The notes under the pieces: generated by a model
Database searches by the model: none
Seen by the model: the letters and a program-made list of their open reading frames with translations, nothing else
What the model was told of the DNA's origin: nothing
Made by a program: the position numbers and the translations under genes
NCBI RefSeq assembly: GCF_000196175.1
Contig: NC_005363.1
Location: 806,001 to 870,000 of the forward strand
Direction: 5' to 3'
Source of the DNA: Bdellovibrio bacteriovorus HD100
GTDB taxonomy: Bacteria > Bdellovibrionota > Bdellovibrionia > Bdellovibrionales > Bdellovibrionaceae
Length of the DNA: 64,000 nt
Shown: in pieces, positions 7,406-58,424 of the stretch
Layout of the letters: every line of letters starts with the position of its first letter
How positions within the stretch are numbered: position 1 is the stretch's first letter

Positions 7406-9586
7406 ATGAACGGATTCATTAGATTAGTAATCCTGAGCGCAATGATTGCCTCTCTGACTTCCTGTGCAAGCCGTCCGGTTGAAGACGATCTGTCTTTGGA
7501 TGGCATGGATTCCTCTGCGGATGTGACATCTGCAGACGAAAGCGCTCCAGCGGCTGACTCAGCCTCTGATGATTTCGCAGAATTCGATGAAATCGACAAT
7601 CAACAACCCGCGCAAGCTGAATCTCAAGCAGCTCCTGCCGATGACCAGGACCTGGCCATCGAAGAGGAAGTGAACGAGGCCGGCGGACAGGAACAAGTGG
7701 CCGATGCGCCGGCTCCTGCTCCGGAAGAAACCAGCCCGACGGAAGATCCGTTTGCAGACAGTTCTGTAGCGGATGTTCCTGCTCAAACTCCAGAGCCGAC
7801 GGTGACCGAAACCACGCCAGATCCATTTGCGGATCAGCCGCCGGTTTCCGAGCCGGCACCGGCTCCGGTGACTGAAACGATTGCCGCTGTTCCATCCGGA
7901 GCTCCGGCAAATATTACGGACCTTAAATTCCGCGCCAATGAAACGGGTGGGACTGTGATCGTGCAGGGGGATCGTCCTTTGACGTACACCACCCGCACAA
8001 ATCCTGATCTGCGCCAGTTCATCATTGAAGTGGACAACGCCAACTTGCCAGACCGTTTGAAACGCTCTTTGAACACCAAAGACATCAAAGGCAGCGTGGG
8101 TGCTATTGATGCTTATCAAAATCCGGGTTCTGCAACAGCGCGCTTTGTGATCCAGATGCGCGAAGGTTTGGGCGAGCCGATGGTTCAGCAAGAAGGCAAC
8201 AGCCTTCTGATCGTGGCCAGCGGATCTGCTCCGGCAGAGGCGATGGAAGTGACAGATGTCAGCACGGCGATGGAAGACAACAACATCCTGCCAAGCCAGA
8301 ATCTGACAGAGTTCCTTGCCGGCAACACCAAATTCTACGGTAAAAAGATCTCTATCGAGACCAGCAACATGGACATCCGTGACGCTTTGAACTTCATCAC
8401 GGAAGAGTCCGGCGTGAACATGGTGATCTCTGAAGACGTTAAAGGTGCAGTCAGTCTGAAGCTGCGTCAGGTTCCTTGGGACCAGGCGCTGGTTGTGATC
8501 ATGAAAGCGAAAAAGCTGGGCTACACCCGTCAGGGCAACGTATTGCGTATCGCTCCACTTCAGGATCTGAAAGCGGAAGAAGATGATGCAACGAAACTGG
8601 CACAGGCCAGAAAGAATCTGGAACCTTTGAAGGTTCGCATGTTCCCAGTCAGCTACGCGAAAGTCGACGAGCTTGAAAAGAAGATCAAAGACTTCCTGGG
8701 CGACCGTGGCCGTGTGGTCGGTGACGTTCGTACAAATGCTTTGGTGGTGACTGATATCGAAGAAAACCTGGAAAGAGCAGCTCGTCTGATCGCCAGCCTA
8801 GATACACAGCCTGCGCAAGTGTCCATCGAGGGTAAAATCGTCGAGGCGAAAGAAAGCTTCACCCGCAATATCGGTGTAAACTGGAGTGCGACGGGTGCGC
8901 CAATCAAGCTGGGTTCCACGGCTCGTGGTCCGGTGAACATGAATCCGTCCTTCAACGTGAATCAGAGCGCGGCGGGTTCTTCCGGTGCTTTGAACTTCAA
9001 CCTGAATGTGGGGACTTTGGATATCTTTGGTACTTTGTCAGCGGCCCTAGCCCTGAACGAAAGCGAAGAGCAGGTTAAGATCATCTCCGCTCCGCGTATC
9101 ATGACTCTGTCCAATGAAAAAGCTGACATCAATCAGACGACGGAAGTTCCGGTTCGTCAGGTGACTCAGAACGGGACAGCCACTCAGGAAACGTTCCAGT
9201 TCAAGCCATTGACACTGAAACTTGAGGTGACTCCGCAGGTAACGGCGGATGGATCTGTTATCATGAAAGTACTGGTTAACAGACAATTCCGTGGTGCTGA
9301 CGTGTCCAGTGCCGGTCAGGGCGCCTTTGCGGTGAACAGCCGTGAAGCCAACACCCGTGTTCTGGTGAAAAACGGTCAGACTGCGGTTATTGGTGGTATC
9401 TATCAAAGTGATGCCACAGACGGTGAAGTGGGTGTTCCTTGGTTCCGCGAATTGCCATTCGTAAGTTATCTGTTTAAGACCAAGAACATCTCCAAGGAAA
9501 AGTCTGAGTTGTTGATCTTCCTGACCCCAAGAATTATGGGTCAGATCGACAACAACGCAGGCAATCCGACAACCACTGACTTCTAA
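7406..9586 (+). CDS. pilQ: Type IV pilus secretin PilQ (predicted lipoprotein)
   Basis: A 726-residue outer-membrane secretin that forms the pore for the pilus fibre. Order of parts: signal peptide ending in a lipobox (LTSC-AS, Cys at about residue 20), an acidic Pro/Ala-rich stretch to about 165, and one AMIN domain (ITDLKFRANETGG onward). Next come STN/N0 and N1 domains (NMDIRDALNFITEESGVNMVISEDV; MFPVSYAKVDELEKKIKDFL). The C-terminal secretin domain follows (RTNALVVTDIEENLERA, VSIEGKIVEAKESF, ISAPRIMTLSNEKADI, ending SELLIFLTPRIM). A lipidated PilQ is unusual, as most have a plain signal peptide. An AGAGGAGG ribosome site lies just before the ATG. Confidence 0.97.
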   Translation: MNGFIRLVILSAMIASLTSCASRPVEDDLSLDGMDSSADVTSADESAPAADSASDDFAEFDEIDNQQPAQAESQAAPADDQDLAIEEEVNEAGGQEQVADAPAPAPEETSPTEDPFADSSVADVPAQTPEPTVTETTPDPFADQPPVSEPAPAPVTETIAAVPSGAPANITDLKFRANETGGTVIVQGDRPLTYTTRTNPDLRQFIIEVDNANLPDRLKRSLNTKDIKGSVGAIDAYQNPGSATARFVIQMREGLGEPMVQQEGNSLLIVASGSAPAEAMEVTDVSTAMEDNNILPSQNLTEFLAGNTKFYGKKISIETSNMDIRDALNFITEESGVNMVISEDVKGAVSLKLRQVPWDQALVVIMKAKKLGYTRQGNVLRIAPLQDLKAEEDDATKLAQARKNLEPLKVRMFPVSYAKVDELEKKIKDFLGDRGRVVGDVRTNALVVTDIEENLERAARLIASLDTQPAQVSIEGKIVEAKESFTRNIGVNWSATGAPIKLGSTARGPVNMNPSFNVNQSAAGSSGALNFNLNVGTLDIFGTLSAALALNESEEQVKIISAPRIMTLSNEKADINQTTEVPVRQVTQNGTATQETFQFKPLTLKLEVTPQVTADGSVIMKVLVNRQFRGADVSSAGQGAFAVNSREANTRVLVKNGQTAVIGGIYQSDATDGEVGVPWFRELPFVSYLFKTKNISKEKSELLIFLTPRIMGQIDNNAGNPTTTDF

Positions 9587-10309: not shown

Positions 10310-10549
10310 ATGAAAACCACTTTGCTTGTCGTATTGTCATTGGCGATAGGGATTGGAATTTCTTGGGCAGGTATGAAGCCCTTTGCCGTCAATCAATTCA
10401 CCGATGGAACTACGGTGGAAACAATCCTGGTAAGGCCAGAAGCCACTGAAACAGCGATCTATCAGATCAAACAATCCGACGGGGTTGTCTGCTACGCTAT
10501 TAGTGGTGCTCGTAACACAAATACACCCACGATCAGTTGCATTAAATAG
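10310..10549 (+). CDS. Small secreted protein of unknown function
   Basis: A 79-residue protein with a signal peptide (MKTTLLVVLSLAIGIGISWAG) and a short mature region with two cysteines (VVCYAISGA and TISCIK). The pattern VVCYA...SC is seen in other small exported proteins, but no function is known to me. The ATG at 10310 has a GAGGTGAA ribosome site and is preferred over the GTG at 10304. Its stop touches the earliest possible start of rarA. Confidence 0.7.
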   Translation: MKTTLLVVLSLAIGIGISWAGMKPFAVNQFTDGTTVETILVRPEATETAIYQIKQSDGVVCYAISGARNTNTPTISCIK

Positions 10550-51410: not shown

Positions 51411-52499
51411 TCACAGTGGCTCTGGTCCTGCGTAGGGCTGTGGCGAAAGCGTCGGAGCAATCCGGAAATCTTTTGGAAGTTCTCCGGTCAGACTCTGCAG
51501 GAAGGCTTTGATCAGGCTGACCTGATCGTCAGTCAGATCCTTATTGAGCTGAAGTTTGCCCATCCAACGAATTGCCGTTTCCAGATCCTTAGCCGAAGCA
51601 TCGTGGAAGTAAGGTGCTGTCTCATTGATATTGCGAAGTGAGGGCACTTTGAAGACATAGAGATCTTCATCCTTCTTGCTGATCTCCTGGCGTCCCTTGT
51701 CCGGAGTTTTGGATTTGGTCACATTCCAGTAGTTCTGAAAGACTCCGAACTTTTGCATGGTTCGGCCACCTATGGCTGTGCCATTGTGGCAGGAGGCGCA
51801 CCCTACAGTTATAAACTCCCTTAGGCCTTTTTTGGCCTGAGCGGAGATGGCCTTGATGTCGCCCTCCAGAAACTGATCAAAAGGCGCCCGGGTGGTCAGT
51901 GACCGCTGATAGATTCCCAGCGCCGCGGCGGCATTCTCAAGCGTCAACGGGGACTTGGAATCCGGGAAGGCCTCTTTAAACAGAGGTTGGTAGCCGGCCA
52001 GCTCGAATCTTTTTAAAGCCTCCTCGACAGAGGAGTTTCCATAGCTTAAGTGGGTGGTGAAAGAACGCAGGGCCTGATCCTCGATGCTTGTTCTGTCATT
52101 GCGCCAATGAACTATCTCCTGGTACTTAAGGTTCAGGATGGATTGAGCGTTGCGTGCGCCTTTGTTGTTATTGAAACCCGCAGACTGCGGCAGTCGGTCC
52201 GTGCTGTAGTACTGAGGTTGATGGCAGCGAACGCAGGTGGTGCTGCCGTCCTTGGAAAGTCTGTAGTCAAAAAAGATCTTTCTGCCCAGTTCGATCTGGG
52301 CACTGGAGACTTTGTCAGGCGCTGCCGTTTTTGCCGGAATGATTCCAAACAGTGCTTTTGCTGTCTTTGCGAGGTCTTTGTCGCTATCAGAAGTCGCTTT
52401 TGAAGCGGTATTTTCCGACATCGCTTGGGTTCCTGAAAAGAGGAGGATCCCGCAAGTCACCACAGACAAAGCCCAGAACCGTTTAAGAGTTGTTTTCAA
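51411..52499 (-). CDS. Di-haem cytochrome c peroxidase (CcpA/MauG family)
   Basis: 362 residues, exported (signal MKTTLKRFWALSVVTCGILLFSGTQA). Two haem-binding motifs, CVRCH and CASCH, at the expected spacing; KIFFDYRLSKDGSTTC and VPSLRNINETAPYFHDA are typical of bacterial cytochrome c peroxidases. It reduces hydrogen peroxide in the periplasm with electrons from a c-type cytochrome. TTG start with a GGGGGTC site. Confidence 0.95.
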   Translation of the reverse strand: MKTTLKRFWALSVVTCGILLFSGTQAMSENTASKATSDSDKDLAKTAKALFGIIPAKTAAPDKVSSAQIELGRKIFFDYRLSKDGSTTCVRCHQPQYYSTDRLPQSAGFNNNKGARNAQSILNLKYQEIVHWRNDRTSIEDQALRSFTTHLSYGNSSVEEALKRFELAGYQPLFKEAFPDSKSPLTLENAAAALGIYQRSLTTRAPFDQFLEGDIKAISAQAKKGLREFITVGCASCHNGTAIGGRTMQKFGVFQNYWNVTKSKTPDKGRQEISKKDEDLYVFKVPSLRNINETAPYFHDASAKDLETAIRWMGKLQLNKDLTDDQVSLIKAFLQSLTGELPKDFRIAPTLSPQPYAGPEPL

Positions 52500-52510
52500 G
52501 AGACCCCCTT

Positions 52511-53812
52511 TTATGCATTGATATTAGCTGTTTCAATCTGTTCCCAGTATTCACGCAGATCCAACTCGACTTCAAGTTTTCTCAGTGCAGCGAAGACACC
52601 CCCAAGCTTGCGATGCAAAAAGATCAGCTTATGAGGTGGGGGAGAATACTTGAGACTTTGCACCAGCTGCCGGGAGAGCCGGGCATTTTCCTTAACAAAC
52701 TTGTCGTTCTTAAAGTCGAACTTTCTGCCATTGGCATTTTGAAAGAACGGGCTCATGCCAAGTTTCAAAAGTTCGACGAACACCATTTTGGCATCTTCAG
52801 ACTCGCGTGAGTCCAGCAGTCCAAATTCGATGGCTGTCGTCACGATCTTTTCCGGCGAGGTGCTGCGGATAGAGCGAAGAAGCTCAATATAGTTCTTTCT
52901 AAACTCTGGAGGATAGTGCCGGGAGGCGCCGAAGTCCAGAGCGACAATTTCCAGCTCGGGAGCCTCGCGGATCAGGAAATTTCCAGGATTGGGGTCGGTT
53001 TGTACGAAGCCCCACACAAAAAACTCCATGACATAAAGTTCTAACATGGACTTGGCGATGAGCTCGCGTTTTTCCACGGGGGGACGGGTGTCGATCCATT
53101 CCTTGAGTGTCAATCCATGTTCGTAGGTCAGACACAAAACTTTGTTGGTGCTGAGGCGATTCAGTGGCTTTGGTGTCTTGATTCGGGCGTGTTTCCAGTC
53201 GTGAGAGTCAAAGAGCTCTGTAAAATTTGAAAGGGCCTTGGCTTCGTTAAGATAGTTTACTTCCTGTCGCAAGACCTCTTCAATTTCCGCAAACAGAGAG
53301 TCCAGATTCATGCTTCTGCCAGTCAGCAGGCACAGCGTGGACATAAGTCGTTTTAAGGCTTTGATGTCATTTTCGATGGATTGTTCCAAATGAGGATACT
53401 GCGCTTTGATGACGATGGGCTTGTTTGCCACTGTGGCTTTATAGACCTGTCCCATGCTGGCGGCTGCAAAAGGTTTATAATTTATGTTTTGCAGTTCTAG
53501 AAGCTGATCGTGATTCAGTTCGGCTTTAAGCACCTGGGCAAGGTCAAGTTCAGGACTGTCAAAGGCCTGATTTTGCAGTTGCGACAGGATTTGGATAGCT
53601 TCCGGAGGGAAGTAGTCGTCCAGATCCAAGCTTAAAAGCTGACCGGCCTTCATGGCAGCTCCACGCAGGTTCCCCAGGCTTTCGGTAAGAATTTTGGCCT
53701 GCTCGATTCTGGATTGAATGTCGCCGGAGGTGAGCTCTTTAAAGCCGATCTTTGTTGCCATTTTTGTAAGCTCAAGCGTTCGTTTCAACCGACTGCTAAA
53801 GATAGATCCCAT
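52511..53812 (-). CDS. ABC1/UbiB-family atypical protein kinase
   Basis: 433 residues. ABC1 marks: the KxGQ motif in GAAMKAGQLLSLDLDDYFPPE, the alanine-rich nucleotide loop AAASMGQVYKA, the Lys in KPIVIKAQYP, the Glu in EVNYLNEAKAL, and the catalytic region QTDPNPGNFLI with VALDFGASRHYP. UbiB-like proteins support quinone synthesis or lipid homeostasis through ATPase activity. The ATG at 53812 with AGGAG 8 bases ahead is chosen; the frame continues to 53914 across the promoter/operator. It is divergent from the DCC gene, with an operator between. Confidence 0.9.
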   Translation of the reverse strand: MGSIFSSRLKRTLELTKMATKIGFKELTSGDIQSRIEQAKILTESLGNLRGAAMKAGQLLSLDLDDYFPPEAIQILSQLQNQAFDSPELDLAQVLKAELNHDQLLELQNINYKPFAAASMGQVYKATVANKPIVIKAQYPHLEQSIENDIKALKRLMSTLCLLTGRSMNLDSLFAEIEEVLRQEVNYLNEAKALSNFTELFDSHDWKHARIKTPKPLNRLSTNKVLCLTYEHGLTLKEWIDTRPPVEKRELIAKSMLELYVMEFFVWGFVQTDPNPGNFLIREAPELEIVALDFGASRHYPPEFRKNYIELLRSIRSTSPEKIVTTAIEFGLLDSRESEDAKMVFVELLKLGMSPFFQNANGRKFDFKNDKFVKENARLSRQLVQSLKYSPPPHKLIFLHRKLGGVFAALRKLEVELDLREYWEQIETANINA

Positions 53813-53845: not shown

Positions 53846-53874
53846 TTGACATTTAATATAGTTCATACTACTAT
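53846..53874 (+). promoter_or_regulatory. Strong sigma70 promoter of the DCC operon, overlapped by operator
   Basis: Perfect TTGACA (53846-53851), 17 bases, TACTAT (53869-53874). The -10 lies inside the palindrome at 53861-53878. Confidence 0.7.
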
Positions 53875-53878
53875 GAAC
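53861..53878. promoter_or_regulatory. Palindromic operator, copy 1 (ABC1 kinase / DCC spacer)
   Basis: GTTCATA-CTAC-TATGAAC, a perfect inverted repeat. It matches the site at 55191-55216 (core GTTCATR-CTAC-YATGAAC, same central CTAC) in front of the GbsR-like regulator gene. A bound repressor would block the -10 of the DCC promoter and probably the divergent kinase promoter (minus-strand TATATT near 53855). Confidence 0.75.
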
Positions 53879-53894
53879 CAAAATGGAGTTCAAG

Positions 53895-54299
53895 ATGGAA
53901 AAGCCAAAAAGCACGTCTCATTCTGGAATCACCGTTTATTATGATGGGCTCTGCCAGCTGTGTTCACGCGAGATAGCTCATTACAGGAAACTGGAGGGGG
54001 CTGAGAATATCGCGTTTGTCGACATCACCTCTTCGGGTTTTGACGCAAATACAGAAGGCCTGGATCCACATAAAATTCATAAGAGTCTTCATGTTCGAGA
54101 TTCTGAAGGTCAGATCTTTACAGGGGTTGAGGCCTTTATTGTGATATGGACTCAGTTAAGAAGTTTGAAAAAGATTGTGCCTTTTGTTTCGTTTGCTCCG
54201 GTAAAAAAGACGCTGGAGGCAGGTTACTTCCTGTTTGCCAAAATCCGGCCTTTGCTGCCAAGGAAGAAATGTTCCGACAGCCCTTATTGCAAGACATAG
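53895..54299 (+). CDS. DCC-family thiol-disulfide oxidoreductase (DUF393)
   Basis: 134 residues. The DxxCxxC signature is YYDGLCQLCSREIAHYR near the N-terminus, followed by the thioredoxin-like pattern IAFVDITSSGFD and EGQIFTGVEAFIVIW. A membrane-near basic tail ends in PRKKCSDSPYCKT. ATG at 53895 chosen for its GGAG site; the ATG at 53883 would be almost leaderless from the predicted promoter. Confidence 0.9.
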   Translation: MEKPKSTSHSGITVYYDGLCQLCSREIAHYRKLEGAENIAFVDITSSGFDANTEGLDPHKIHKSLHVRDSEGQIFTGVEAFIVIWTQLRSLKKIVPFVSFAPVKKTLEAGYFLFAKIRPLLPRKKCSDSPYCKT

Positions 54300-54328
54300 C
54301 CGGTATTAAATAAGTAAGAAAGGGCTGT

Positions 54329-54634
54329 ATGGGAATTTCAAAAGTGCTAAGACAGAAGTTTGCCGGTTTTTCGGAAGAAGATCGCGCCAGACTTGTGCGC
54401 ATGGGCTGGGAGGATCGGACGACTTTTGATGCGATCGCGGTGCAGTTCGGGCTTTCACCAAACGAGTTCGTTCACTTTATGCGAACCGTCCTGTCGGCGA
54501 ATGCTTTTAGTCGCTGGCGACGTCGTGTGTTTGAGCAGGGGCAACTGAAGAACGAAAAAAGACGGGGATTTAAGGTCACCCGTTTTAAGTGCTCAAGGCA
54601 GTCAGTGGACGGAATTACGAAAGGCTGGAAATAG
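54329..54634 (+). CDS. DUF2805/TIGR03643 family small protein
   Basis: 101 residues. FSEEDRARLVRMGWEDRTTFDAIAVQFGLSPNEFVHFMRTVLSANAFSRWRRRV is the family pattern. The fold looks like a small helix-turn-helix DNA-binding domain with a basic tail. AAAGGG site upstream. Same operon as the DCC gene, and its 3' end faces the GbsR-like regulator gene. Confidence 0.85.
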   Translation: MGISKVLRQKFAGFSEEDRARLVRMGWEDRTTFDAIAVQFGLSPNEFVHFMRTVLSANAFSRWRRRVFEQGQLKNEKRRGFKVTRFKCSRQSVDGITKGWK

Positions 54635-54636
54635 TC

Positions 54637-55191
54637 CTATTTTTCAGCTTTCAGCGCCTCTTCAGTCCAGCAGGCCAGGGATTCTTCATCACTTTGTCCA
54701 ATGATAAAATTCAGGGCAAATTGCGCTAAGGTGATCATCTGTCCAAGCTCTTCGACACGGTCGTGTTGAAGCAGGGATTCCTGCTCGCCTCTTTTTTCGT
54801 GGATCTTGTGAAGTGTCCCGAATTTTTCTTGAGTGGCCGCAATGATCTTGGCTTCCCGCTCTTTAAGAATGTCTTTGATCACAGGGATGACATTTGGGGC
54901 CGCCGAGTATCGTTTTGTTTTCTTTCCATCTTCCGTCATCAGGATAAGGCCATAGGCTTCCAACTCGGAAAGAGCAGGGCTGATCAGGGCTTTAGAGACG
55001 CCCAGTCTTTGAGTCAATTCGGCGCCGCTAAGGCTGGTCTTTGACAAAAAGACCTGAGTCCAAATTTGGCCGTGAATTCTGCGAAACCCCCAGTAACGAA
55101 TAAAGTCCCCCACGGACTCTGACAGGTCACGGAGTTTATTGATTTCAGCTGTGGCGGTTGACGCGGTTGTTTTTTGGTCTGCTTTTCTCAT
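54637..55191 (-). CDS. GbsR/MarR-family transcriptional regulator
   Basis: 184 residues. Winged helix-turn-helix (IWTQVFLSKTSLSGAELTQRLGVSKALISPALSELEAYGLILM, wing EDGKKTKRYSAAP) followed by a helical dimerisation region. N-terminal RDLSESVGDFIRYWGFRRIHGQIW is typical of GbsR-type proteins. Its start codon touches the palindrome at 55191-55216, so it very likely represses itself. A minus-strand promoter (TTGATG, 17 bases, TAGCAT) overlaps that palindrome, giving a nearly leaderless mRNA. Confidence 0.9.
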   Translation of the reverse strand: MRKADQKTTASTATAEINKLRDLSESVGDFIRYWGFRRIHGQIWTQVFLSKTSLSGAELTQRLGVSKALISPALSELEAYGLILMTEDGKKTKRYSAAPNVIPVIKDILKEREAKIIAATQEKFGTLHKIHEKRGEQESLLQHDRVEELGQMITLAQFALNFIIGQSDEESLACWTEEALKAEK

Positions 55192-55216
55192 TTAGTTCAT
55201 GCTACCATGAACTAAA
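55191..55216. promoter_or_regulatory. Palindromic operator, copy 2 (GbsR-like regulator / OsmC spacer)
   Basis: TTTAGTTCATG, central CTAC, then its exact reverse complement: an 11-base perfect inverted repeat sharing core and centre with copy 1 at 53861. It sits between the divergent regulator and OsmC genes. Confidence 0.8.
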
Positions 55217-55247
55217 GTCACCATCAAGGTGCGGAGGAGAATTTGTC

Positions 55248-55682
55248 ATGAACAAGTATCCAATGTTTTTCAAGGCGCGGGCAGAAAGCTCCGCCGGAAT
55301 TCAGAGCCTTTGGGACTCTCAATCAATGTCTGTCGACTCTGGCGTTCGCATGGCGATTCCCGCCGAATTTGAGGGCCCAGGGGGAGGTTTCAGCCCTGAA
55401 GATCTTTACGTCATGGCATTGCAGAATTGTTTTGTGGCCACCTTTAAAGTGTTCGCAGAAAAATCGAGACTGGCTTATGAAAAGCTTCGCATTGAGTCCG
55501 AGCTGACTGTGGACCGCGATGAACATGGCCGGCCGTGGATGGCACGTTGTTTCTTTAATGTGCATCTTGAGGGCGCAGAGCAGATAGAGAACGCAAAAAG
55601 AATTTTGGCCCGCGCCTCAGAAAGTTGTATGATTCTGAATTCGGTCAAAACGGAGAAGGTGTTTGAATTTCATGTGTCTTAA
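55248..55682 (+). CDS. OsmC/Ohr-family peroxide or thiol-reactive protein
   Basis: 144 residues. OsmC fold with SPEDLYVMALQNCFVATFKVFAEK and ILARASESCMILNSVKTEK holding the two conserved cysteines used to reduce organic peroxides. GGAGGAG site and ATG at 55248. First gene of an operon with a hydrolase and a dehydrogenase-like protein, under the palindromic operator. Confidence 0.9.
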   Translation: MNKYPMFFKARAESSAGIQSLWDSQSMSVDSGVRMAIPAEFEGPGGGFSPEDLYVMALQNCFVATFKVFAEKSRLAYEKLRIESELTVDRDEHGRPWMARCFFNVHLEGAEQIENAKRILARASESCMILNSVKTEKVFEFHVS

Positions 55683-55694
55683 AAGGATCGGGGC

Positions 55695-56396
55695 ATGATG
55701 CCACTTGAAACAATCGTATTGCTGCCGGGATTTTTGTGTGATGAGCGCCTGTGGGCCCCTCTGGTGCCGGTTTTTTCCGAACGCTACAATGTTCGCGTGG
55801 TGGATTTGAAGCATCCTCAGAATCTGGATGCCATGATTGAAGAAGTGGGAAAGACTTCCGACCAAGCTTTTCATCTGGTGGGCTTTTCCATGGGCGGGTA
55901 TATCGCCGAAACTTTTGCCACCCGTTTTCCTGAACGAGTGCTGTCTTTGTCTTTGGTGGCGGCCAGCGTTGGGGCCTTGTCTGAAAAAACGCGGGCGGCA
56001 CGCCTGAAGATGGTGGGACTTTTAAGACGTGGAAAGTACAACGGCATTTCGGAAAAAGAGATGGATCGTTATATCCACCCCGATTTTCTGAAGGACCCGC
56101 AAGTGGTCGGCCCCATCATGCAGATGAGTGCCGACTTTTCCTCTGAACAGTATATCAACCAAACCTTGGCCACTGTGGACCGAATCGACAAAGGCGCAGC
56201 CTTGCAAGAACTGTCGTTCCCGGTTCTGATCGTGGCGGCGGCCAATGATCGGGTGGTTCCGTTGGAGTCCTTGAAGAATCGTCATGCCCAGATATCACGC
56301 TCTAAGTTCCGGGTGATTGATCATTGCGGGCATTATGTGCCGTTGGAACAGCCAGCCGAACTGGGTCAAGCCGTTCTTGATTTTGTCGGGCGGTGA
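55695..56396 (+). CDS. Alpha/beta hydrolase
   Basis: 233 residues, no signal peptide. Oxyanion motif LLPGFLCDERLW, nucleophile elbow LVGFSMGGYIAETFA, acid in VAAANDRVVPLES, and His in VIDHCGHYVPLEQP: complete triad. Similar to small cytoplasmic esterases of the MhpC/BioH type. It begins 12 bases after the osmC stop; the next gene starts directly at its stop. Confidence 0.92.
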   Translation: MMPLETIVLLPGFLCDERLWAPLVPVFSERYNVRVVDLKHPQNLDAMIEEVGKTSDQAFHLVGFSMGGYIAETFATRFPERVLSLSLVAASVGALSEKTRAARLKMVGLLRRGKYNGISEKEMDRYIHPDFLKDPQVVGPIMQMSADFSSEQYINQTLATVDRIDKGAALQELSFPVLIVAAANDRVVPLESLKNRHAQISRSKFRVIDHCGHYVPLEQPAELGQAVLDFVGR

Positions 56397-57116
56397 GTGG
56401 TGAAACAAACGTGGGGCATCATTGGCTTGGGTTGGTTGGGGCAGAAGCTTTCTGAACACTTAAGTCAAAAAGGCATCGAAAACTGGGGCACCCGCAGTCA
56501 GGATTTTGACTGGGGTTGTGATGATTTTCCGACCAAACCCTGTGATGTGCTTTTTCTGAATACACCGCCGCTGTTGCAAATCAATCCTGAAAACTTTGTT
56601 GCCAAAATTCCGACAGGTGGTTATCGCCGGATTATTTTTATCAGTTCGATTTCCGTGTATGGCAATCAAGCCGGCAGCATCACTGAACAAACAACGACTG
56701 AGCCCATGACAGACAGTGCGCGTTGGTTGGTGGCTGTGGAAAATCTTTTAAGTGAGAAGTTCACCGGTAAACTGACGGTGATTCGTCCCGGGGGTTTGGT
56801 TGGTGGCGACCGGCACCCTGCCAAAAGTTTGTCGCAGAGTCAGCGGCCTTGCGCTGGGAATTCAGCCGTGAATCTGATTCACCGTGACGATCTGGTGCAG
56901 ATCATCTGGGCGGCGGCTCAGGCAGAATCAGCCTGGCCTGTCATTAATGCTGTGACGCCATTTCATCCTGCAAAAAAAGAATACTACGGCGAGTGGACGG
57001 CCGCGCGGGGAATGGCTCCTGTTTTATTTACTGATACACAAGAGCCTTCCAAGATTGTGCGCTCGGATGTTCTTCCCAAGATTTATTCAAGCTGGCTTCG
57101 TCCGCGTTTGGACTGA
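56397..57116 (+). CDS. NAD(P)-binding SDR/epimerase-like protein (YeeZ-like)
   Basis: 239 residues. Nucleotide-binding GIIGLGWLGQKLSEHL at the N-terminus, then IIFISSISVYGNQAGSITEQ, typical of extended short-chain dehydrogenases, and TVIRPGGLVGGDRHPAK. The usual YxxxK catalytic pair is not evident, so it may be a non-catalytic or atypical member. GTG start abuts the hydrolase stop. Confidence 0.85.
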   Translation: MVKQTWGIIGLGWLGQKLSEHLSQKGIENWGTRSQDFDWGCDDFPTKPCDVLFLNTPPLLQINPENFVAKIPTGGYRRIIFISSISVYGNQAGSITEQTTTEPMTDSARWLVAVENLLSEKFTGKLTVIRPGGLVGGDRHPAKSLSQSQRPCAGNSAVNLIHRDDLVQIIWAAAQAESAWPVINAVTPFHPAKKEYYGEWTAARGMAPVLFTDTQEPSKIVRSDVLPKIYSSWLRPRLD

Positions 57117-57206
57117 TTGGTTTTTCAGCAGCACTGCCGATAGATTTGGCAGTTCCGTGTTTTTATTAGCGATGACATCGGAGGCGTGGTAAAGGGATTG
57201 CCTCTT

Positions 57207-58424
57207 ATGCATCATGATGTTTCTCTGACGGATGACCAAAATATACGCAAAGATCTGTTCTTTGCCTCGTCGAACCTGCTTAAGAAAATCCGTCAGCTTG
57301 AAAAAGACCACACGGACTTTCTGCTCTGGGATCAAATCCTGTATCAAGACTGGTACAATCTGACGTTCCGAGACGAGCTTCAAGCCGGTGAACTGCTTGA
57401 AAAACGTCATAAGGTGCTGACCACCTTCCAAGTGCATTTGAAATACGTCGCCAACACCTCGAACGTTCCTTTGGAGCGTGCCTACTGCATGTTGAAAGAG
57501 GAAGAAAGCCAGTACCAGGCGGGTGATGATGTGTGGAAGTTTGTTATCGACAAACTGAGAAAGAATCGCTTCGACACCGCGACCAGAAGTTCCGCTGTCG
57601 CCGGGGAGCCACTGCCGATCCCTGAAGATGGACCGGCCATCAACTTTGCTGAAATTTTCTTTAAGGACGATTCTGCGCTGAGCGGTCTTAGACGTCGTGC
57701 GCGCTCAGTGTATCACTATCTGAATGATATTGACGATGGCATGATGGCCCGTCACTTGTCCGTTCCGATGGCGGGATATCAGTTGTTTAAAGAGACGTTC
57801 CAGATTGCCATGAAGTGCGGGGATTGGAAGCTATTGGGTCGTTTGTGGAAAGCAGCCGATCCCGCCTATCAGCAAAGATACCTGCGCAATATGCCGGTGC
57901 ATTTAAAAGACTTCCTTCAGCAGATCATTGCCGAAAATGCCAGTGAAGAAGCCCTGGAAAAAGAGCAGGCCGAGGCTGAAAGTCTGCTTCGCACCACCTA
58001 TCGTAAACTGGCGCGCCTGCTTCATCCGGATAAGCAGATCGGTGTTTCGAAAGAACATCAGGATTGGGCTTCCATCAAATGGCAGCGTGTGCAGGCGGCA
58101 TACAAAGCCCAGGACCACGATGCGTTGAAACGCATCGAGCTGTTATGCATGGCCGAGCTGGGCCAGCTTAATGATTTGACCACCGATGAAATCTATCAAA
58201 GCTCGCTGGTGTTGAATGAAGAGTACGAAGCGCTCAAGAGGAATCTGAAGGCCTGTCGCAAGCACCCGGCGTGGAAGTTTTCCAGCCGTCGCAGCTATGA
58301 GACACTTAAAAAACAAGCCCGTCTGGAGCTGGAAAAGCGCTTTGGCCCTTTGGAGGCCGAAGTGCACATGCTGGAAAGCCTGCTGAAAATGCTTTCGGCG
58401 GCAGAGAAGCAGGCCGTTCATTAG
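57207..58424 (+). CDS. Protein with internal J-like domain
   Basis: 405 residues, soluble, helical. A J-domain core lies around residues 255-310: LLRTTYRKLARLLHPDKQIGV with the HPD motif and the flanking helices (SIKWQRVQAAYKAQDHDALKRI). The region before it (LLKKIRQLEKDHTDFLLWDQ, VYHYLNDIDDGMMARHL) and after is not recognised. It probably recruits DnaK to a specific client. The ATG at 57207 has AAAGGGA 9 bases upstream; a GTG at 57186 is less likely. Confidence 0.8.
   Translation: MHHDVSLTDDQNIRKDLFFASSNLLKKIRQLEKDHTDFLLWDQILYQDWYNLTFRDELQAGELLEKRHKVLTTFQVHLKYVANTSNVPLERAYCMLKEEESQYQAGDDVWKFVIDKLRKNRFDTATRSSAVAGEPLPIPEDGPAINFAEIFFKDDSALSGLRRRARSVYHYLNDIDDGMMARHLSVPMAGYQLFKETFQIAMKCGDWKLLGRLWKAADPAYQQRYLRNMPVHLKDFLQQIIAENASEEALEKEQAEAESLLRTTYRKLARLLHPDKQIGVSKEHQDWASIKWQRVQAAYKAQDHDALKRIELLCMAELGQLNDLTTDEIYQSSLVLNEEYEALKRNLKACRKHPAWKFSSRRSYETLKKQARLELEKRFGPLEAEVHMLESLLKMLSAAEKQAVH

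Follow-up and report, generated by a model that had tools for sequence, protein, structure and literature searches.

A probable autorepressed regulon of a GbsR/MarR-type protein under bidirectional operator-promoters in Bdellovibrio bacteriovorus HD100, with a proposed role in photo-oxidative stress

The gene cluster and its two palindromes

The window analysed in this study is a stretch of 64,000 nucleotides of the Bdellovibrio bacteriovorus HD100 genome, and it contains a cluster of genes arranged around two palindromes (Table 1). The first palindrome separates the genes of an ABC1/UbiB-like kinase and a di-haem cytochrome-c peroxidase/MauG protein from the genes of a DCC1-like thiol-disulfide oxidoreductase and a DUF2805 protein. 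The second separates a GbsR/MarR-type regulator from osmC, which is followed by an alpha/beta hydrolase and an NAD-epimerase-like (dehydrogenase-like) protein. The DCC start at 53895 was chosen for the second ATG, which is conserved among relatives.

Table 1. Genes, predicted operators and predicted promoter elements of the cluster (window positions).
Feature	Position	Strand	Basis and remarks
Di-haem cytochrome-c peroxidase/MauG protein	51411-52499	-	PF03150, E 1.4e-39; TTG start, ribosome site AGGGGG
ABC1/UbiB-like kinase	52511-53812	-	PF03109, E 1.7e-51; ATG at 53812, ribosome site GGAGAG; start read from sequence
DCC promoter, predicted	53846-53874	+	TTGACA 53846-53851, 17 bp, TACTAT 53869-53874 inside operator 1
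Operator 1, predicted	53861-53878		GTTCATACTACTATGAAC; exact match; between ABC1 kinase and DCC gene
Divergent ABC1 promoter, predicted	53865-53893	-	TTGAAC 53893-53888, 17 bp, TAGTAT 53870-53865 inside operator 1
DCC1-like thiol-disulfide oxidoreductase	53895-54299	+	PF04134, E 3.1e-25; alternative ATG at 53883
DUF2805/TIGR03643 protein	54329-54634	+	PF10985, E 9.6e-26; TIGR03643 above cut-off
GbsR/MarR-type regulator, 184 aa	54637-55191	-	1KU9 profile match; MarR fold; predicted leaderless
Operator 2, predicted	55195-55212		GTTCATGCTACCATGAAC; exact match; between regulator and osmC
Regulator promoter, predicted	55199-55227	-	TTGATG 55227-55222, 17 bp, TAGCAT 55204-55199 inside operator 2
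Possible osmC -10	55203-55208	+	TACCAT inside operator 2; its -35 poor
OsmC-like protein	55248-55682	+	PF02566, E 1.1e-17
Alpha/beta hydrolase	55695-56396	+	PF00561, E 2.5e-17
NAD-epimerase-like protein	56397-57116	+	weak PF01370/PF13460

The first-pass annotation had proposed a set of seven genes, of which the ABC1, DCC, DUF2805, regulator and OsmC genes are retained. The MauG gene had been omitted; its TTG start lies 11 nt past the ABC1 stop, a MauG gene is found near ABC1 in further genomes too, and it probably belongs to the ABC1 operon and to the set. The hydrolase and dehydrogenase-like genes accompany the cluster only in HD100 and its closest relative, G023, where they are set apart from osmC by LysR and DJ-1/PfpI genes, and we regard them as probable read-through genes at the periphery of the conserved set. 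In HD100, the regulon thereby comes down to about eight genes and two sites. The cluster is directly followed, at 57186-58424, by the gene of a 412-aa protein whose C-terminal part weakly matches the J-domain.

Both palindromes, reported at first pass as near-identical, are real: each matches the pattern GTTCATRCTACYATGAAC exactly, and they lie 1,334 bp apart, whereas, with up to 3 mismatches allowed, dinucleotide shuffles of the window yield an expected 0.07 matches. The proposed genome scan, performed with GTTCATNSTASNATGAAC at up to 2 mismatches over the 3,782,950 bases, returned the two window palindromes and a third site with 2 mismatches, which was rejected as an operator on account of its control-level count and its location inside an open reading frame. 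The two palindromes are the only copies in the 3.78-Mb genome beyond the control level. The position of operator 1 is kept in six Bdellovibrio genomes. The asymmetric CTAC centre shared by the two copies, which had been taken for a feature of the motif, is not conserved, with relatives carrying CTAG, GTAC, CTAC or GTAG; because the symmetric centres CTAG and GTAC exist, CTAC was rejected as a recognition feature. What is conserved among relatives is the centre STAS, which gives a -10 hexamer to each strand. The extended operator consensus reads TTGA-N-TTTTCATATT-GTTCATACTAGTATGAAC-AATATGAAAA-N-TCAA and, when symmetrised over 42 sites, TTGA..TTTtcATATtGTTCATACTAGTATGAACaATATgaAAA..TCAA.

The palindrome, the regulator and the promoters

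We searched one set of 141 genomes from the order twice, independently, with the motif pattern and with the regulator protein. The motif search was built from the window's motif only, with at most 1 mismatch and the reversed motif as a control, and a protein match at E <= 1e-31 defined a close regulator homologue. The motif was present in 29 genomes (3 for the reversed control) and the close homologue in 30; the latter occurred in 28 of the 29 motif genomes, compared with 2 of the 112 others (Fisher p 4e-26). Moreover, in G139, one of the two regulator-only genomes, the regulator start bears a palindrome whose centre differs (L125).

In every homologue that scores 121 bits or more, and also in a weaker one (L029), a palindrome is found no further than about 100 nt from the aligned start of the regulator, and the site is kept in homologues down to about 40% identity. 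The 17 nearest other homologues lack it at the regulator start, their best candidates showing between 2 and 5 mismatches, and a search for a palindrome common to these 17 found none. When 47 regulators were placed in a tree, those with the site (30 rows) formed one side of a branch with support 98/96, and the presence of the site requires 1 change compared with 14.2 in shuffles, a clustering to which near-copies also contribute. Outside the order, the only exact match in the sampled genomes of the phylum precedes a regulator homologue (55%) and then an ABC1 gene. Within the genus, DCC and the site-bearing regulator have one and the same distribution, both being present in seven genomes besides HD100 and absent from the other 16; therefore, the cassette is gained or lost as a unit.

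Because the palindrome tracks the regulator so closely, much the likeliest reading is that the palindromes are operators bound by the regulator encoded between them and that the regulator controls its own gene. Of the initial proposal, that the regulator represses itself and both flanking operons, the operator and the autoregulation are well supported as predictions by the comparison of genomes. The part concerning osmC has to be held more loosely: because the -35 on its side is poor, osmC in HD100 is a less secure target than the regulator, DCC and ABC1 genes.

The promoter elements lie in and around the same sites. The claim that one palindrome copy overlaps the -10 of a strong promoter in the gap between ABC1 and DCC proved correct. 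Over the 42 sites, the -35 score has its maximum exactly at the offset of a 17-bp spacer (3.13 vs 1.64, s.d. 0.50), and an ATG follows exactly 3 nt beyond the site at 48 of the 84 site ends. Overlapping -10 elements on opposite strands are present at the sites as sequence geometry, with predicted start sites that would be 23-25 bp apart, and the site is most simply read as an operator combined with a bidirectional core promoter. The regulator ATG stands only 3 nt from operator 2, so that a leaderless message is predicted; in most relatives, too, a start codon is found at this distance from the site.

These features might also be expected if the palindrome were a symmetric bidirectional core promoter only and not the binding site of the regulator, for both -10 elements lie inside it, the -35 elements stand at 17 bp, and the whole resembles the bidirectional promoters of E. 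coli (PMC12825309). However, the GTTCAT arms hardly vary at all, a conservation well in excess of what -10 and -35 elements need, and the motif is limited to genomes that have a site-clade regulator. We consider this explanation very improbable.

A regulator that activates the flanking promoters, or both activates and represses them, would be compatible with the poor -35 of osmC in HD100, and activation is known for some MarR-type proteins. However, on both strands the -10 falls inside the site, so that RNA polymerase would be kept out by a bound dimer, and the DCC promoter is near-ideal, with no need of an activator; activation thus seems unlikely. Repression, like binding and the operon boundaries, is a prediction. 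A -10 lies inside the site on each strand, and therefore a bound dimer should silence both divergent genes at once.

Neighbouring genes and the proposed role

The best solved relative of the regulator by profile is MJ223 (1KU9), the GbsR prototype (E 3.3e-12), and its AlphaFold model, with a pLDDT of only 75, has a MarR-type fold whose best matches are 5JBR and then 1KU9. The GbsR/MarR type given to it at first pass therefore stands. The choline-type GbsR models are only distantly related to the clade, and the CudC equivalog model scores the regulator at 15.8 bits against a cut-off of 218 bits. The protein has no chromophore-binding feature that would explain sensing. Sensing through a thiol was rejected, as the site clade has no conserved cysteine and no cysteine column is common to more than 9 of its 30 rows.

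Comparison between genomes, which supports the site, its tie to the regulator clade and the promoter geometry, also brings out a recurring set of genes. The families found repeatedly near the sites of relatives are the regulator, DCC, DUF2805, OsmC and ABC1, together with proteins resembling FAD amine oxidoreductases, others resembling 2-oxoacid-dehydrogenase acyltransferases, and proteins of the TIGR01777/SDR type. In about a dozen loci, we also observed a predicted membrane protein of 138-148 aa with no Pfam family, which is not in the window's cassette (examples are L069:10135-10581, L070:2726-3154 and L116:6475-6891). The divergent arrangement of osmC and the regulator occurs in HD100, G023, G022 and G043.

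Photolyase-type genes adjoin the site in ten site-bearing genomes. PF04244 genes are found by the site in L036, L073, L077, L118, L119, L122 and G058, the last with the site 77 bp ahead of the match, and genes of the classical family (PF00875/PF03441-type) in L112, scanned against Pfam, and in L114 and L121, grouped by BLAST. Since a genome of roughly 3 Mb holds one or two such genes, we estimate the adjacencies expected by chance at far below one; many site-bearing loci have no photolyase nearby. In addition, GTP cyclohydrolase I is encoded near the site in L114 and a lipocalin in L113, with a member of the same BLAST family in L112, and SnoaL, SDR, DUF3833 and DUF2878 genes lie under two sites in L070. 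This last locus forms a larger island of the light type (L070:7334-11100, in G007), in which SnoaL and SDR diverge around the palindrome at 8533 and DUF3833-DUF2878 follow the palindrome at 10484.

Three further arrangements were observed. In G022, a gene with MerR and B12-binding domains (CarH/LitR-like; L068:12567-13499) lies between the regulator and DCC-DUF2805, in this one species. In G019, whose sole regulator homologue belongs to the non-site clade, DUF2805 directly adjoins a PF04244 photolyase-like gene (C4:310754-312569). Weaker regulator homologues stand near PF04244 genes in G034 (C147), G054 (C36) and G117 (C307), and the palindrome is absent in G034 and G054; therefore, a sister clade may serve the same function through a different operator.

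The whole model that we consider probable is an autorepressed photo-oxidative-stress regulon under bidirectional operator-promoters. The regulator would bind the 18-bp palindrome as a dimer, and each palindrome would be the centre of a bidirectional sigma70-type promoter, with a -10 inside it on each strand and the -35 elements 17 bp away. One bound dimer would then block both divergent transcripts, that is, ABC1-MauG and DCC-DUF2805 at operator 1 and the regulator and osmC at operator 2. When the signal appears, the regulator would let go and the set, including the regulator itself, would be expressed. The most likely physiological role would be protection from light-driven damage by singlet oxygen and lipid peroxides.

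The part played by light is suggested by analogy, because the genes at the sites of relatives resemble the light-gene sets of LitR and ChrR. The redox or membrane-stress flavour noted earlier can be sharpened, with moderate confidence, to photo-oxidative stress, as the operator of relatives adjoins photolyases, GTP cyclohydrolase I, lipocalin, DUF3833/DUF2878 and SDR genes. Targets of the photolyase/cryptochrome, folE, SDR, lipocalin and DUF3833 families are found across relatives and not in the two-site regulon of HD100. Because the photolyase gene of HD100 (at 2.10 Mb) has no site and PF04244 is absent from its genome, the eight genes of its regulon do not have to respond to light. In the library searched, no paper linked Bdellovibrio OsmC with MarR, and none of the papers listed for light stress in Bdellovibrio was directly relevant.

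With the same operator and autorepressor, the signal could instead be an organic-peroxide, thiol or quinone stress unrelated to light, as in OhrR/Ohr. The HD100 set itself would fit such a signal, comprising OsmC, a DCC thiol oxidoreductase, an ABC1/UbiB kinase and a di-haem peroxidase, as would the AhpC/TSA-type protein encoded after the site in L123. However, photolyases, GTP cyclohydrolase I and lipocalin recur by the sites of relatives, and the regulator lacks a conserved cysteine. We hold this signal to be somewhat unlikely and keep photo-oxidative stress as the preferred reading.

A broader form of the photo-oxidative model is put forward tentatively, as slightly less probable than not. 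An undescribed GbsR/MarR clade might replace LitR/CarH or RpoE-ChrR in the photo-oxidative response of Bdellovibrio-like bacteria, with a symmetric operator-promoter that fires two leaderless messages and a new ligand derived from light or lipid oxidation. The photo-oxidative model would assign a concrete function to some of the unassigned members of the GbsR family and would link DCC, DUF2805 and ABC1 proteins to light damage. Furthermore, it provides an exact predicted operator for testing in a genetically tractable predatory bacterium.

Comparison with known systems

Members of the GbsR family repress adjacent genes, and CioR represses its own operon (PMC11837568). The known groups adjoin osmoprotectant, glycine-betaine or cytochrome-bd genes, and 73 of 179 have no assignable role (PMC6207618). 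The regulator shares with this family (GbsR, OpcR, OpuAR, CydE/CioR and MJ223) the MarR-type winged helix and, by profile, its closest solved structure, 1KU9. However, its clade adjoins DCC, DUF2805, OsmC, ABC1 and photolyase genes, and none of the neighbours of the assigned groups, which are not required for membership, lies beside the regulator. OhrR-Ohr likewise pairs a MarR-type gene with a divergent gene of the OsmC family; unlike OhrR, the regulator described here has no conserved sensing cysteine, its gene set is larger, and its operator differs.

CrtR of Corynebacterium glutamicum is a MarR-type repressor of light-induced protective genes and of itself, the inducer of which is unsettled (PMC6739363). 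It acts in a divergent promoter region and provides a precedent for a light-linked repressor of this type, but it controls carotenoid genes in actinobacteria and its motif (TTAA) differs. In Pseudomonas, the LitR-dependent light-induced set includes phrB, SDR, FAD oxidoreductase, ufaM, cryB and folE (PMC9758184), whilst blue-light genes of Vibrio cholerae, photolyases among them, are under the control of ChrR and a MerR regulator (PMC5241685). The target families photolyase/cryptochrome, SDR, FAD oxidoreductase and folE overlap with those found here. However, those systems use a B12- or LOV-linked MerR regulator and an ECF sigma/anti-sigma pair, whereas the present regulator is of the MarR type, with no MerR DNA-binding or B12-binding domain by Pfam, and the HD100 genome has no match to the ChrR-type zinc/cupin anti-sigma factor (PF12973).

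In the bidirectional promoters of E. coli, the most frequent distance between divergent starts is 18 bp, and a distance of 23 bp is also common (Warman et al., PMC12825309). The sites described here share, as sequence geometry, the overlapping -10 elements on opposite strands, and their predicted start-site distance falls near the 23-bp class. Unlike those promoters, the symmetric promoter is here itself the predicted operator, and in most relatives it feeds two predicted leaderless genes. The site would thus represent a very compact natural case, in which the operator, both -10 elements and the predicted starts of two leaderless genes fall within about 25 bp.
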